Translations under genes and position numbers: made by a program
Part shown: piece by piece, positions 58,194 to 62,285 of the stretch
Layout of the letters: each line of letters starts with the position of its first letter
Numbering within the stretch: the stretch's first letter is position 1
Notes under the pieces: model-generated
Seen by the model: the letters and a program-made list of their open reading frames with translations, nothing else
Databases searched by the model: none
What the model was told of the DNA's origin: nothing
NCBI RefSeq assembly: GCF_003952165.1
Contig: NZ_RXFT01000003.1
Span: forward strand, 248,001-312,000
Reading direction: 5' to 3'
Source of the DNA: Variovorax guangxiensis
Lineage (GTDB): Bacteria > Pseudomonadota > Gammaproteobacteria > Burkholderiales > Burkholderiaceae_C
Length of the DNA stretch: 64,000 nt

Positions 58194-59390
58194 TCAGACG
58201 CGTTCAAAGATCCCTGCGGCGCCCTGGCCCATGCCCACGCACATCGTGACCATGCCGTACTTCAGGTTCTCGCGGCGCAGCGCGTGCACCACGGTGGCCG
58301 AGCGGATGGCACCGGTGGCGCCCAGCGGATGGCCCAGCGCGATCGCGCCGCCCATCGGATTGACCTTCGACGCATCGAGCCCCAGCGTGTTGATGACGGC
58401 CAGCGACTGCGCGGCGAAGGCTTCGTTGAGCTCGAACCAGTCGATGTCCTCGTGCTTCAGGCCGGCATAGCGCAGCGCGGCGGGAATGGCCTCGATGGGG
58501 CCGATGCCCATGATGTGCGGCGGCACGCCCTTGCTGGCGAAGCTCACGAAGCGCGCGAGCGGCGTCAGGCCGAACTGCTTCACCGCCTTCTCGCTGGCCA
58601 GGATGAGCGCACCGGCGCCGTCCGAGGTCTGCGAGCTGTTGCCCGCCGTCACGGTGCCGCGCGCGGCGAACACGGTGCGCAGCTTGGCCAGGCCTTCGAG
58701 GCTGGTGTCGGGGCGCGCGCCTTCGTCGAGATTGACGGTGCGGGTCCTGGCGATGGACTCGCCGGTCTCCAGGTTCGGCGTGCGATCGGTCACCTCGATG
58801 GGCGTGATCTCGTCGGCGAACTTGCCGGCCTGCTGCGCGGCCAGCGCCTTCTGGTGCGAGGCGAGCGCGAACTCGTCCTGCGCCTCGCGGCTCACCTTCC
58901 ACTGCTGCGCCACCTTCTCGGCCGTGAGGCCCATGCCGTAGGCGATGCCCACGTCGCCTTCGCGTTCGAAGATGGCAGGCGACAGCGACGGCGAGTTGCC
59001 CATCATCGGCACCATGCTCATGCTCTCGACACCGGCCGCGATCATCACGTCGGCCTCGCCCACGCGGATGCGGTCGGCGGCCATCTGCACGGCCGACAGG
59101 CCCGAGGCGCAGAAGCGGTTGACGGTGATGCCGCCCACGCTGGTCGGCAAGCCAGCCAGCACCGCGCCGATGCGCGCGACGTTCAGGCCCTGCTGCGATT
59201 CGGGAATCGCGCAGCCGCAGATGATGTCTTCGATGGCCTTCGGGTCGAGGCTCGGCACCGCCGCGAGGGCGGCGCGCAGCGTGGTGGCCAGCAGGTCGTC
59301 GGGGCGGTAGTTGCGGAAGTAGCCCCGGTGCGACTTGCCGATGGGGGTGCGGGTGGCGGAGACGATGTAGGCGTCTTGGACTTGCTTCAT
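58194..59390 (-). CDS. Acetyl-CoA C-acyltransferase (FadA-like thiolase)
   Basis: A 398-residue thiolase: nucleophile Cys94 ([10 protein letters not shown]), histidine in ALGHPLGATG and second cysteine in TMCVGMGQGAAG. It performs the last step of beta-oxidation with the FadN-like protein encoded at 59886-62285. Its ATG overlaps the stop of the DUF559 gene by four bases (ATGA), so the inserted gene has become translationally coupled. Confidence 0.95.
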   Translation of the reverse strand: MKQVQDAYIVSATRTPIGKSHRGYFRNYRPDDLLATTLRAALAAVPSLDPKAIEDIICGCAIPESQQGLNVARIGAVLAGLPTSVGGITVNRFCASGLSAVQMAADRIRVGEADVMIAAGVESMSMVPMMGNSPSLSPAIFEREGDVGIAYGMGLTAEKVAQQWKVSREAQDEFALASHQKALAAQQAGKFADEITPIEVTDRTPNLETGESIARTRTVNLDEGARPDTSLEGLAKLRTVFAARGTVTAGNSSQTSDGAGALILASEKAVKQFGLTPLARFVSFASKGVPPHIMGIGPIEAIPAALRYAGLKHEDIDWFELNEAFAAQSLAVINTLGLDASKVNPMGGAIALGHPLGATGAIRSATVVHALRRENLKYGMVTMCVGMGQGAAGIFERV

Positions 59391-59872
59391 GGCTTGAGAT
59401 TCCTGGTGTCTTGTCTTGCTCGTTCGCCCGATGGGACGGCGGCTTTCTGTCTTGCTCCCTCTCCCGCTTGCGGGAGAGGGTTGGGGTGAGGGCTGTCTTC
59501 CTGCAGCGCCTGCAGGATCCGCTCCCGCACCGCGTCGGTCTGCGTCAGCACTTCTTGGTTCCAGAAGCGAAGCACGCGATAACCCTGAGCTTCGATGAAG
59601 CGCGTGCGCTCCTCGTCGTACGCGACAGCCTCGGCGTGCTGCCCGCCGTCCAGCTCGACGATCAGCTTCGTTTCGATACATGCGAAGTCTGCGAAGTACG
59701 GGCCGATCGGACGTTGGCGGCGGAACTTGAAGGTGGCCATGCGGCGGTCGCGCAGGTGGTGCCAGAGCAACGCCTCGGCATCGGTCGGGGTCGCGCGAAG
59801 GCTGCGAGCCCTCACCCTAGCCCTCTCCCGCGAGCGGGAGAGGGAACCGGCCGTGTCGAGGTTTTCGCTCAT
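59387..59872 (-). CDS. DUF559 (Vsr-like nuclease fold) protein
   Basis: A 161-residue protein. The core (residues 25-125) is DUF559, related to very short patch repair endonucleases: LRATPTDAEALLWHHLRDRR, FRRQRPIGPYFADFAC with Asp62, VELDGGQH at 72-79 and YRVLRFWNQEVLTQTDAVRERI. Both ends (LSRSRERARVRA and SPHPNPLPQAGEG) are translated from the flanking 39-base inverted repeats. The gene splits a fadN-fadA pair and lies in the same direction. Its function in cells is unknown; the repeats suggest a mobile cassette. Confidence 0.9.
   Translation of the reverse strand: MSENLDTAGSLSRSRERARVRARSLRATPTDAEALLWHHLRDRRMATFKFRRQRPIGPYFADFACIETKLIVELDGGQHAEAVAYDEERTRFIEAQGYRVLRFWNQEVLTQTDAVRERILQALQEDSPHPNPLPQAGEGARQKAAVPSGERARQDTRNLKP
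59455..59493 (-). repeat. Left flanking repeat of the DUF559 cassette
   Basis: A 39-base unit with a hairpin core CCCTCTCCCGC-TT-GCGGGAGAGGG followed by TTGGGGTGAGGGC. Its inverse matches the unit at 59808-59846 at 35 of 39 bases. It encodes SPHPNPLPQAGEG in the DUF559 frame. Confidence 0.9.
59808..59846 (+). repeat. Right flanking repeat of the DUF559 cassette
   Basis: GCCCTCACCCTAG followed by the hairpin core CCCTCTCCCGC-GA-GCGGGAGAGGG. It is oriented opposite to the unit at 59455-59493, so the two face each other as terminal inverted repeats around about 310 bases of DUF559 coding sequence. Confidence 0.9.
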
Positions 59873-59885
59873 GGTCCTTGCGAGA

Positions 59886-62285
59886 TCAGTTGCGCACTGG
59901 CTTGCCGGTGCTGAGCATCCCCATGATCCGCTCCTGCGTCTTGGGATGCACGATGAGCGAGCAGAACGCCTTGCGCTCCAGCGTCATCAAATATTCCTCG
60001 GTCACGAGCGAGCCCGCGTCCACGTCGCCGCCGGTGACCACGTTGGCGATCAGGCTGGCGATGTGGAAGTCGTGCGCGCTGATGAAGCCGCCGTCGCGCA
60101 TGTTCACGAGCTGGCCCTTGATGGTGGCGGCGCCGCTGCGGCCCGCAACGCGGAAGGCGCGGCGCAGCGGGGGGCGGTAGCCGGCGTCGGCCATGGCCTT
60201 GGCCTGCTGCAGGGCCACATACAGCAGCTCGTCCTTGTTCGGCACGATCACGTCGCTGTCGAGCAGGTAGCCCAGCTTCTTCGAGTCGAGCGCGCCGGTG
60301 CCCACCTTCGCCATCGCGGCGGCGGTGAAGCCTTCGGTGAGGAAGGGCAGCAGGTCGGTGCCGGTGGAGGCCGAGGCGTTCTCGGCCGCACGGCGGGCGA
60401 TGTAGGTCAGGCCGCCCGCGCCGGGGATCAGGCCCACGCCCACTTCGACCAGGCCGATGTAGCTTTCCATCGCGGCAACGCGTTTGGCCGAGTGGATGGC
60501 CAGCTCGCAGCCGCCGCCCAGCGCCATGCCGCGCACGGCGGAGATCACCGGCACGTTGGCGTAGCGGATCTTGAGCATCACGTTCTGCAGCTCTTCTTCC
60601 GCGCCCTCGACCGCGCCGATGCCCGCGACCACGAAGGCCGGCAGCATCGCCTGCAGGTCGGCGCCGACCGAGAACACCTCGTCGGGCGACCAGATCACCA
60701 GGCCCTTGTACTCGGCCTCGGCCAGCTCGACCGCGGCGCCCAGCGCCTCGGCCACGTCGGGGCTGATGGCGTGCATCTTCGAATGGATGCTGGCGATGAG
60801 CACCTCGCCATCGAGCGTCCACACGCGCACGTCGCCTTCGTCGCTGATGGTGGTGCCCGCCGTGTTGGCATCGGCCGCGTTGGCGCCGAGCACGCTCTCG
60901 GGGAAGAGCTGGCGCTCGTGCACCGGCAGGCGGCGCTGCGGCACGAACTTGTTCTGCGAGGCGCTCCACGAGCCCTCTGGCGTGTGCACGCCGCCGGCCT
61001 CGGCCACCGGGCCTTCGAACACCCACCTGGGCAGCGGTGCGCTGCTCAGCGCCTTGCCGGCGTCGATGTCTTCCTGCACCCACTTGGCGACCTGCGCCCA
61101 GCCGGCTTCCTGCCAGAGCTCGAAGGGGCCCTGCTTCATGCCGAAGCCCCAGCGCATGGCGAAGTCGATGTCGCGCGCGCTCTCGGCGATGTCGCCCAGG
61201 TGCACGGCAGCGTAGTGGAAGCCGTCGCGCAGGATGGCCCAGAGGAACTGCCCCTGCGGTCCTTCGCTCTCGCGCAGCAGCTTCAGGCGCTCGCCCGCGG
61301 GCTTCTTGAGCATGCGGCCGTACACCTCGTCGGCCTTGGCGCCGGCGGGCACGTATTCGCCGCTCTCCAGGTCGAAGCGCAGGATGTCGCGGCCGGCCTT
61401 CTTGAAGAAGCCGGCCTTGGTCTTCTGGCCCAGGTTGCCCAGCTCGAGCAGCTTGGCGAGCACGGGCGGCGTCGCGAAGTTGGCGTAGAACGGATCGGTC
61501 TCGGCGTTGAGGTTGTCCTGCAGCGTCTTCACGACGTGGGCCATCGTGTCGAGCCCCACCACGTCGGCGGTGCGGAATGTGCCCGAACTGGCGCGGCCCA
61601 GCTTCTTGCCGGTCAGGTCGTCCACCACGTCGGGCGTCAAACCGAACTTCTCGACTTCCTTCAGCGTGGCCAGCATGCCGGCGATGCCGACGCGGTTGGC
61701 GATGAAGTTGGGCGTGTCGTGCGCGCGCACCACGCCCTTGCCCAGCGTGCTGGTGACGAAGGCTTCGAGGTCGTCGAGCACCTGCGGCTCGGTGGTGGGC
61801 GTGTTGATCAACTCCACCAGGAACATGTAGCGCGGCGGGTTGAAGAAGTGGATGCCGCAGAAGCGCGGCTTCAGCGCCTCGGGCAGCGCCTCGCTGAGCT
61901 TGGTGATCGACAGGCCCGAGGTGTTGGAGGCCAGGATCGCATGCCTGGCGACGTGCGGCGCGATCTTCTTGTACAGATCGAGCTTCCAGTCCATGCGCTC
62001 GGCGATGGCCTCGATGACGAGGTCGCACTCGGCGAGCTTGTCGAGGTTGTCGTCGTAGTTGGCCTGCTCGATCAGCACGGCGTCGGCCACGTCGCCCAGC
62101 GGCGCGGGCTTGAGCTTCTTGAGGTTGTCGATGGCGCGCGTGACGATGCCGTTCTTCGGGCCTTCCTTGGCCGCCAGGTCGAACAGCACGACAGGCACGC
62201 GCACGTTGACGAGGTGGGCCGCGATCTGCGCGCCCATCACGCCGGCGCCGAGCACGGCGACCTTCTTCACTTGAAATCGGGACAT
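59886..62285 (-). CDS. FadN-like 3-hydroxyacyl-CoA dehydrogenase / enoyl-CoA hydratase
   Basis: A 799-residue fusion with the dehydrogenase first: VAVLGAGVMGAQIAAHLVN at the N-terminus, SNTSGLSITKLSEALP and HFFNPPRYMFLVELI, and C-terminal dehydrogenase domains to about residue 430. A crotonase domain follows (FSVGADLQAML, RGMALGGGCELAIHSAKRV). This order is that of FadN rather than FadB. It hydrates and oxidises fatty acyl-CoA intermediates. It is followed by the DUF559 cassette and the thiolase gene. Confidence 0.95.
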   Translation of the reverse strand: MSRFQVKKVAVLGAGVMGAQIAAHLVNVRVPVVLFDLAAKEGPKNGIVTRAIDNLKKLKPAPLGDVADAVLIEQANYDDNLDKLAECDLVIEAIAERMDWKLDLYKKIAPHVARHAILASNTSGLSITKLSEALPEALKPRFCGIHFFNPPRYMFLVELINTPTTEPQVLDDLEAFVTSTLGKGVVRAHDTPNFIANRVGIAGMLATLKEVEKFGLTPDVVDDLTGKKLGRASSGTFRTADVVGLDTMAHVVKTLQDNLNAETDPFYANFATPPVLAKLLELGNLGQKTKAGFFKKAGRDILRFDLESGEYVPAGAKADEVYGRMLKKPAGERLKLLRESEGPQGQFLWAILRDGFHYAAVHLGDIAESARDIDFAMRWGFGMKQGPFELWQEAGWAQVAKWVQEDIDAGKALSSAPLPRWVFEGPVAEAGGVHTPEGSWSASQNKFVPQRRLPVHERQLFPESVLGANAADANTAGTTISDEGDVRVWTLDGEVLIASIHSKMHAISPDVAEALGAAVELAEAEYKGLVIWSPDEVFSVGADLQAMLPAFVVAGIGAVEGAEEELQNVMLKIRYANVPVISAVRGMALGGGCELAIHSAKRVAAMESYIGLVEVGVGLIPGAGGLTYIARRAAENASASTGTDLLPFLTEGFTAAAMAKVGTGALDSKKLGYLLDSDVIVPNKDELLYVALQQAKAMADAGYRPPLRRAFRVAGRSGAATIKGQLVNMRDGGFISAHDFHIASLIANVVTGGDVDAGSLVTEEYLMTLERKAFCSLIVHPKTQERIMGMLSTGKPVRN

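Follow-up and report, generated by a model that had tools for sequence, protein, structure and literature searches.

The window analysed here is a 64-kb stretch of DNA (64,000 nucleotides) from Variovorax guangxiensis, in which a small open reading frame (ORF) of 161 amino acids on the minus strand (59387..59872) separates two host genes of the same strand. These are a 3-hydroxyacyl-CoA dehydrogenase/enoyl-CoA hydratase gene (fadN-like, 59886..62285) and an acetyl-CoA acyltransferase gene (fadA-like, a thiolase, 58194..59390), the labels fadN and fadA being those of the initial annotation. The stop codon of the small ORF, TGA, overlaps the thiolase start codon, ATG, in the sequence ATGA (59387..59390, minus strand), which is the junction between cassette and host gene. 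Both the position of the cassette between fadN and fadA and this overlap had been reported in the initial annotation and are borne out.

The ORF matches the Pfam family PF04480 (DUF559) with 143.5 bits, against a curated cut-off of 20.6, over profile positions 3–109 of 109, and its only other Pfam match, to MTES_1575, is sub-threshold. Rfam gave no match within 59300–60000 (E up to 1) and PADLOC gave nothing beyond a weak match to DpdF (E 0.025). Together with the profile match, the residues that are invariant in 33 sequences, which include E33, D62, E73, H79 and D86, and an AF2 model indicate a Vsr/EDxHD-like nuclease fold. The solved folds closest to the model are 3hrl, a DUF559 protein (Z 17.0), I-Bth0305I (Z 13.1) and Vsr (Z 10.3), while similarity to Holliday junction resolvases is weaker than that to Vsr. 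Sequence matches agree, with E values of 1e-38 for 3hrl and 4e-6 for the EDxHD homing endonuclease 3r3p, so that the catalytic fold of EDxHD homing endonucleases is found both in sequence (3r3p) and in structure (Z 13.1). The DUF559 protein consists of a single small domain and has no extended DNA-binding region. The solved member of the same family, 3hrl/NGO0050 of Neisseria gonorrhoeae, is given no function in the portions of the literature consulted.

Two REP-like units of 39 nt, here called type A, bracket the core of the gene. The upstream unit (59807..59845, minus strand; upstream in the sense of the gene) has the tail GGGTGAGGGC pointing inward and is part of the N-terminus, and the downstream unit (59456..59494, plus strand), also with its tail inward, is part of the C-terminus. 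Each consists of a palindrome followed by an inward-pointing, G-rich tail, GGGTGAGGGCT, and carries neither a GTAG nor a CGTC tag with CCA tail. The perfect palindrome CTCTCCCGC-NN-GCGGGAGAG is present in both units, with cores at 59823..59842 (upstream, CTCTCCCGCNNGCGGGAGAG) and 59459..59478 (downstream). The units are spaced by 312 nt and one matches the reverse complement of the other at 36/39 positions; among 200 dinucleotide-shuffled versions of these flanks, the best reached 26/39. The inverse 39-base units described initially are therefore real, and their identity is corrected from 35/39 to 36/39. At three or fewer mismatches, they are the only matches to the palindrome in the 64-kb window, and when the entire window was shuffled 100 times, two or more matches arose 4 times. 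As DNA, the units form hairpins with 10-bp stems and z values of −2.98 and −1.46, the latter meaning that the second stretch in its entirety shows no exceptional stability. The ORF reads through both units, as had been noted, yielding SLSRSRERARVRA at the N-terminus and SPHPNPLPQAGEG at the C-terminus. PHPNPLP-like ends, seen among the DUF559 proteins analysed and common in databases, are translated repeats, which a role of DUF559 in propagating or processing such hairpins would account for.

The fadN-fadA site was followed through 61 genomes of the genus. A full-length DUF559 gene occupies it in 30 of these, so that the same cassette does not lie at this locus in all relatives, and all 30 loci are bracketed, 13 by the type A repeat and 17 by a second repeat, type B. 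A reading of these 17 as unbracketed, which rested on the type A pattern, was ruled out by a pattern-free comparison. Among the matches listed for the genus loci, type B surrounds a DUF559 group other than that of type A. Empty sites, which the initial annotation had proposed to look for in relatives, make up 21 of the 28 classified gene-less sites; the others are one solo hairpin, one inner deletion, one decayed cassette and four sites with another element, the empty, solo, deleted and decayed states being assigned by eye from the sequences (L262, with no thiolase on its contig, and L263, a weak match in G018, were excluded from the site table). For the window's own cassette, the mobility data are this presence and absence across the genus. 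Type A cassettes at fadN-fadA have an ATG on both sides, which may be a target-site duplication but is explained equally well by the need for a start codon. On a tree of the flanks, the site changed among A, B and empty at least 18 times. In this tree G016, which has no A or B repeats, falls among repeat-rich genomes, so the tree probably mirrors recombination at the locus.

This turnover fits a free-standing homing endonuclease, by which DUF559 would cleave fadN-fadA alleles that lack an insert, or small gaps elsewhere, and the cassette would be copied in from incoming DNA by homologous recombination; the repeats would merely be edges, terminators or former junctions. The nearest characterised fold beyond DUF559, the EDxHD homing endonuclease I-Bth0305I, speaks for such an enzyme, as does the presence of different DUF559 genes at further conserved sites of related genomes. 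However, the protein lacks the extended DNA-binding region noted above, and homing alone would not be expected to produce tens to hundreds of dispersed repeats. In addition, exchange between A and B is also seen at a second site, which holds a repeat doublet and no gene. Here, 18 of 30 genomes have the site filled, 11 have a precise absence and one has another arrangement (L378, with one side only, was excluded); ATGA flanks the insert on both sides, again a candidate target-site duplication for which the need for a start codon accounts equally. On this evidence, homing is quite unlikely.

Cassettes at different sites indicate where the moved segment ends. Of the 130 sides of 65 informative pairs, just one has a shared block that extends more than 15 nt beyond both repeat edges, and this sole overrun is 18 nt. 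In five of the pairs the block runs edge to edge, within 10 nt, at both loci, while in most of the remainder it stops within the cassette, a pattern compatible with divergence and uninformative on the edge. The test excluded 40 pairs with shared flanks or other blocks, and a further three of 68 pairs, in which the alignment fell on an additional DUF559 copy of L103, were left uncounted to give the 65. Thus inverted repeats bound the moved segment in cassettes elsewhere, as seen in the edge test and in the pair L045/L067. In another pair, L100/L105, the shared block starts at the repeat and L100 has no right-hand repeat. The pair L079/L090 has a 97% block that starts and breaks off at hairpins; its standing as a clean, repeat-bounded duplication is weakened by an extra 540-nt block of 90% identity, which lies downstream at another offset. 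A strain-level comparison for empty sites in Sinorhizobium meliloti placed the match in a 3.7-Mb record, probably a chromosome, and 80% coverage of the query was reached in none of the other records of the plasmid set. From the genus presence and absence and these edges elsewhere, the mobile unit in the window is inferred to be repeat, DUF559 and inverted repeat, about 390 nt (59456..59845, minus strand).

Across the phylum, DUF559 was matched (E 0.001) in 130 of 328 sampled genomes. From the stronger PF04480 matches listed, which are not a random draw, 109 loci were taken; L122, at a contig end, was excluded from all bracketing counts, and 76 of the resulting 108 loci are bracketed, compared with 4/108 and 3/108 for offset controls. 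Among the named loci, 51 of 56 are bracketed (three of 59 were dropped for short flanks), and 36 of 41 when the fadN-fadA site is left aside. The part of the initial interpretation that saw a RAYT-like layout, with an enzyme gene between inverted REPs, is well supported by this bracketing. The remaining 32 of the 108 loci, including all eight loci of four families, are unbracketed, which counts against a REP-type reading; part of the DUF559 family serves another purpose or no longer has its repeats. At the same score, MarR genes were bracketed in 0 of 29 loci and GIY-YIG genes in 16 of 29, by another repeat class (one of 30 loci in each set was dropped for length). With GIY-YIG genes bracketed comparably often, bracketing is not peculiar to DUF559, which also counts against a REP-type reading. 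The repeat classes differ: YTCCC hairpins lie on both sides of 62/108 DUF559 loci and of 0/29 GIY-YIG and 0/29 MarR loci, whereas a CGTC hairpin with CCA tail is found at 6/108 DUF559 loci and 7/29 GIY-YIG loci. In the gonococcal record, which reads by eye as the 3hrl protein, copies of a YTCCC-class unit bracket the gene; unlike those in the window, these 113-nt repeat copies are in direct, not inverted, orientation.

The bracketing of GIY-YIG genes also bears on whether DUF559 is a bystander, that is, small cargo caught between two repeats whose movement depends on a different enzyme (some transposase, RAYT/TIRYT or other). REPs are classically linked to RAYTs (PMC2817692, in the text available), a Y1_Tnp gene is present in 58 of the 61 genus genomes, and the terminal inverted repeats of some tyrosine transposases carry GGGGWSAS (PMC3733652, in the text available), which the tail GGGGTGAG fits. 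Yet 29 genus Y1_Tnp loci have neither a type A or B repeat nor an inverted pair (best score 14.5; one locus was too short), and genomes without A or B repeats, such as G016, have the Y1 gene too. Moreover, 12 of 19 DUF559 genomes gave no Y1_Tnp match and nine of those hold 4–96 hairpins. These repeat-free Y1_Tnp loci and DUF559 genomes lacking Y1_Tnp rule out a RAYT as the necessary mover. Mixed cargo would also be predicted; instead, MarR genes are never bracketed in the set above and GIY-YIG genes have a different repeat class in the same genomes. The bystander explanation is thus unlikely.

The number of repeats follows the gene. As proposed in the initial annotation, the unit was counted genome-wide: the type A palindrome core occurs 23 times in this genome at one or fewer mismatches, and its reversed control 0 times. 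In the genus, both repeats are more numerous in the 30 genomes with the gene than in the 31 without (A, p=4e-6; B, p=2e-9; uncorrected for relatedness). In the phylum, the median number of hairpins is 68.5 in 40 genomes with a bracketed DUF559 gene and 1 in 40 without, also uncorrected for relatedness; the positive genomes each have at least one bracketed locus and their counts include the cassette's own units, the negative genomes are absent from the list of 130 DUF559-matching genomes, and genomes with solely unbracketed DUF559 stand outside these counts. A spread of repeats with no link to DUF559, the adverse outcome foreseen initially, is thus not what is observed. Tree-aware pairs for gene and repeat number gave three for, none against and four undecided, and are underpowered. 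Several observations count against a REP-type reading: the type, A or B, of the resident DUF559 has no bearing on the number of type A repeats (p=0.88); G048, in which the site is empty, still holds 29 A and 26 B repeats; and across families, protein and repeat similarity showed no significant correlation in two versions of the comparison (p=0.48 and 0.061). Also bearing on coevolution of enzyme and repeat, a gene's own repeats are closer than the repeats of a different paralogue in 18 of 26 pairs, with seven opposite and one tie. In addition, DUF559 shows lower conservation than either neighbouring gene in 190 of 191 pairs, which are non-independent (55/55 for type A, 135/136 for type B; L012 and L014 excluded). 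RAYT genes are likewise reported to evolve faster than their neighbours (PMC2817692, in the text available).

The association could also arise if DUF559 were a genome-care enzyme, namely a nuclease for repair or hairpin processing that resembles Vsr and that hosts retain to cope with cruciform-prone repeats or mismatches. Repeat-rich genomes would then need the enzyme, and the repeats would regulate or terminate its gene. Consistent with this are the fold similarity to Vsr, the weaker one to Holliday junction resolvases and the Caulobacter DUF559 protein VsrA, which according to the available part of the source acts in a response to DNA damage that is linked to cytosine methylation (PMC12907096). 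However, such a role leaves unexplained the matching copies around each gene, with outer edges that delimit the shared segment, as well as the two gene groups and two repeat types at one site, and it is very unlikely.

The explanation we favour, and regard as moderately probable, is a mobile system like that of REPs and RAYTs, in which the enzyme is an unrelated, Vsr/EDxHD-fold DUF559 nuclease presumed to cleave DNA. Empty sites, similarity that ends at repeat edges and genome-wide repeats that track DUF559 all argue for the mobile cassette suggested initially, whereas the accompanying suggestion that DUF559 itself may move or process the repeats is a prediction. The locus would be the autonomous copy, with a DUF559 nuclease in place of the RAYT transposase and its parts ordered as hairpin with inward G-rich tail, DUF559, inward tail and hairpin. 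Gene-less doublets of about 110–160 nt, which are REPIN-like, and solo hairpins would be the non-autonomous copies. DUF559 is predicted to recognise the hairpin together with the tail in repeats of its own type, probably when the DNA is extruded or single-stranded, and to nick or cut at the repeat edge using the Vsr/EDxHD-type active site. Repair might then copy or excise the segment between two repeats, so that repeats would spread through narrow gaps between genes, with the DUF559 gene persisting by riding along.

Such a DUF559 system would share much with the REPtrons (RAYT/TnpA-REP genes with GTAG REPs and REPINs). As far as the available text of PMC2817692 and PMC3116915 goes, both combine a small enzyme gene flanked by two inverted REPs with dispersed REPs, inverted doublets and a repeat number tied to the gene. 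They differ in the enzyme, which in REPtrons is an HUH/Y1 tyrosine transposase and here a PD-(D/E)XK/Vsr-like DUF559 protein, and in the repeats, which carry a GTAG tag in REPtrons and, in DUF559 units, a tail such as GGGTGAGGG instead. The single Y1_Tnp gene of this genome (L232) lies elsewhere, without such repeats. CGTC-tagged REPs, including the rickettsial RPE-4/RPE-6 and the neisserial dRS3, likewise join a short palindrome to an unpaired tag; they occur mainly as head-to-head dimers, are common in Alphaproteobacteria and are said in the available text of PMC3733652 to have no dedicated transposase; their sequence and tag are unlike those of the DUF559-associated units. The catalytic fold is common to DUF559, I-Bth0305I and Vsr, but the DUF559 locus has neither an intron nor an additional DNA-binding region, and dispersed palindromes take the place of one allelic target. 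In the literature consulted, no paper was found linking DUF559 to REPs.

If the DUF559 reading is correct, a large and abundant repeat class, the YTCCC hairpins, would gain its enzyme; DUF559, a Pfam family of unknown function, would gain a role in propagating or processing them; and REP mobility would become testable with a small, non-HUH nuclease. More tentatively, and short of being probable, at least three unrelated small nucleases, each with a repeat class of its own, may drive bacterial extragenic palindromes: HUH RAYTs with GTAG repeats, DUF559 of the Vsr/EDxHD fold with YTCCC hairpins that end in tails such as GGGTGAGGG, and stand-alone GIY-YIG proteins with repeats of the CGTC type and related ones. 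The CGTC repeats, reported in 2013 to lack a dedicated transposase, would then also acquire an enzyme, and the propagation of short hairpin DNA would repeatedly have drawn on nuclease families familiar from homing introns.

The DUF559 ORF of the window (59387–59872, minus strand) has a fadN-like gene on one side and a fadA-like gene on the other, and its end overlaps the fadA-like start in an ATGA. Two 39-nt units, at 59456–59494 and 59807–59845, share 36 of 39 identities in inverse orientation, where 200 shuffles gave a maximum of 26. In each, a perfect 20-nt palindrome carries a G-rich tail, GGGTGAGGGC, on its gene-facing side. As the ORF spans both units, the ends of the protein are translated repeat. 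The initial annotation had correctly described a gene between inverted 39-base repeats that are translated into its ends; its count of 35 identities is corrected here to 36.

Some match to PF04480 is present in 39 of the 61 genus genomes and a full-length one (≥122 bits) in 30. In all 30 full-length loci, both flanks match those of the window. The window's palindrome, known as type A, brackets 13 of these at a spacing of 355–370 nt, and is absent from the fetched stretch in the other 17. When their left and right flanks were compared without a preset pattern, these 17 loci proved to be enclosed by another unit, type B, whose most frequent form is CTCCTTCCCCCTCTGGGGGAAGGYYGGGATGGGGGC. Identity to the window's DUF559 is 67–85% in the type A group and about 42–47% in the type B group, and with 13 type A and 17 type B loci, protein group thus matches repeat type in 30 of 30. 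The flanks of some A/B pairs are up to 97% identical despite differing DUF559 and repeat. The flank tree requires no fewer than 18 changes among the A, B and empty states, and no fewer than nine between filled and empty.

The fadN end was matched in 30 of the 31 genomes that lack a full-length DUF559, spuriously in one, and 28 sites were classified by eye. The mobility proposed initially is borne out by this comparison of relatives, as a cassette (repeat, DUF559 gene and inverted repeat) of type A or B is present in 30 genus genomes and 21 of the 28 gene-less sites are empty, with 13–26 nt between the host genes. Four others hold another repeat element and one a decayed type B cassette. In the last two, a lone type A hairpin joins both outer flanks, or two type A units are retained with the interior deleted; this solo hairpin and inner deletion are what would be left by palindrome recombination and MITE-like decay.

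The genome-wide count that had been suggested as a check gave 23 copies of the type A palindrome (≤1 mismatch) in the 7.18-Mb genome, which has a single DUF559 match, and none of the reversed pattern. Six pairs lie <2 kb apart: five at 62–94 nt and one, the DUF559 cassette, at 364 nt. By eye, 15 type A stretches comprise singles and closely spaced doublets whose tails point inward, L333 being the sole doublet with outward tails. The type B repeats of this genome (L338–L360, also by eye) are mostly heterodimers of a CCTTCCCCC hairpin and a CCCTCCCCC variant, though the resident DUF559 is type A. One gene-free doublet, G000:C2:89834, was used as a query against 60 genomes, from which 30 loci were retrieved. 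The query and 29 loci gave 30 resolved sequences, all at one stop/start overlap: 10 type A doublets, eight type B-like doublets, 11 precisely empty sites and one other element. Hence, gene-free repeats also appear, vanish and swap types at one place. The insert has ATGA on either side, which may be a target duplication or merely the retained stop and start codons. In some genomes, fadN–fadA (L236, L238, L245, L252) and this second site (L379) hold hairpin elements of other kinds, CCCCCTTGCAGGGGGCAACACC-like or CCCCCTCGGGGGGCAGCGCAGCAC.

Cassettes at unrelated sites should not resemble each other beyond the repeats if these are the boundaries of the unit. Of the 130 sides in 65 informative pairs, a single one shows similarity that overruns both repeat edges by >15 nt; it does so by 18 nt, in a pair 86% identical and 5.7 kb apart in one genome (L045/L067). 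In five pairs (L057/L301, L089/L141, L103/L105, L111/L134 and L308/L309), the shared block spans the full distance between the edges to within 10 nt at each locus; in most others the block stops within the cassette and is uninformative on the repeat edge. L079/L090 is not a clean example because a second shared block lies outside the cassette, a weaker case that is balanced by the systematic test.

Across the phylum, DUF559 was matched in 130 of 328 genomes. The stronger matches gave 109 loci, of which 108 were tested for a segment scoring ≥18 common to the left and right 300-nt flanks. Bracketing was found in 76 of the 108 (66 in inverted comparison), spanning 55 genomes and 17 of 21 families. 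Control windows of equal geometry elsewhere in the same loci were positive in 4/108 and 3/108, and MarR genes of the same genomes in 0/29 at the same score. In a separate collection of named relatives, 51 of 56 loci are bracketed (36 of 41 outside the fadN–fadA site), including Azospirillum, Gallionella, Mesorhizobium, Marinicaulis and Cedecea. The repeat units are alike: a YTCCC stem, in many followed by a second hairpin, leads into a tail, for example GGGTGAGGG, GGGATGGGGG, GGGAGAGGG or CGGATGAGGGG. Where a genome has at least two bracketed DUF559 genes, copies of a gene's own repeat are closer than the other gene's in 18 of 26 pairs (seven against, one tie). Conserved sites with homologous flanks also occur in other families (L057, L059, L087, L091, L096, L137 and L142; L082, L094 and L104), and their cassettes share no DNA similarity in many pairs, as at fadN–fadA. 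L103 (G203) carries a second DUF559-like stretch, at about 229–600, ~1.2 kb from the first.

With relatedness ignored, the 30 genus genomes that carry full-length DUF559 hold more copies of both type A (p=4e-6) and type B (p=2e-9) than the 31 lacking it, of which 18 are free of the A repeat and 18 of the B repeat. A tree-aware version of this test gave three pairs in favour, none against and four undecided. Within the genus, copy number was independent of the resident DUF559 type for type A (p=0.88) and weakly dependent on it for type B (p=0.025). Again with relatedness ignored, 40 phylum genomes that carry one or more bracketed DUF559 genes hold 4–518 matches (median 68.5) to the hairpin pattern TCTCCCN{2,9}GGGAGA, and 40 genomes without a DUF559 match hold 0–17 (median 1); the reversed-pattern control gave 0–6. 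Counted against the link are the 32 of 108 phylum loci that are unbracketed, including all eight loci of four families; genome G048, where repeats persist without the gene; and a correlation between protein and repeat similarity across families that is not significant.

A RAYT was considered as the necessary mover of these repeats and rejected, because genus Y1_Tnp loci lack types A and B and several phylum DUF559 genomes lack Y1_Tnp. No A or B repeat was found at 29 genus Y1_Tnp loci, where inverted pairs score ≤14.5 (one of the loci is of insufficient length), and 12 of 19 phylum DUF559 genomes have no Y1_Tnp match; nine of these 12 were counted and hold 4–96 hairpins each. Of the 61 genus genomes, 58 carry a Y1_Tnp gene (e.g., at G000:C40:69554–69883), all but one of them in single copy, and at L205–L233, these 29 loci, it is apparently an orphan RAYT-like gene. 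Also counted against the link, stand-alone GIY-YIG genes of the same genomes (L144–L173) are bracketed as often as DUF559, with matching repeats on both sides in 16 of 29 loci, and these repeats are of another class. A CGTC hairpin with a CCA tail occurs at 7/29 GIY-YIG, 0/29 MarR and 6/108 DUF559 loci, making GIY-YIG a candidate enzyme for the CGTC REPs, which according to PMC3733652 lack a dedicated transposase; that text mentions neither DUF559 nor GIY.

Across 33 sequences, the DUF559 residues that never vary include E33, W37, D62, K69, E73, H79, D86 and R89. AlphaFold2 gave a confident core (block means 89–96 for residues 31–70 and 91–120), with low confidence at the first residues and the repeat-encoded C-terminus. 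Among solved structures, the closest matches are 3hrl, also a DUF559 protein (Z 17.0), the homing endonuclease I-Bth0305I (Z 13.1) and Vsr (Z 10.3); an Hjc resolvase (Z 7.5) and TnsA (Z 6.6) match more weakly, and Z <8 may reflect a common arrangement only. In Neisseria gonorrhoeae NZ_CP119142.1 (L391), a 2.17-Mb record that PLSDB lists as a plasmid, a 113-nt YTCCC-class repeat flanks a gene reading as 3hrl on both sides, in direct orientation. In 190 of 191 pairs, conservation is lower in DUF559 than in either neighbour gene.

No DUF559–REP link was found in the open-access literature searched, nor among the matches listed in a wider search. Of the Vsr and REP terms, only Vsr endonuclease co-occurs with DUF559 in these open-access texts, and GIY-YIG was not found together with REP terms. 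VsrA of Caulobacter is a DUF559 protein according to PMC12907096, and a term search of PMC12306157 brought no mention of nucleases in this context. The criteria applied here to DUF559 are those for RAYT systems, as given in PMC2817692. A putative mechanism by which DUF559 would act on the repeats rests on analogy with RAYT and on the fold. The association itself is a recurrent gene–repeat partnership, wider than one cassette.
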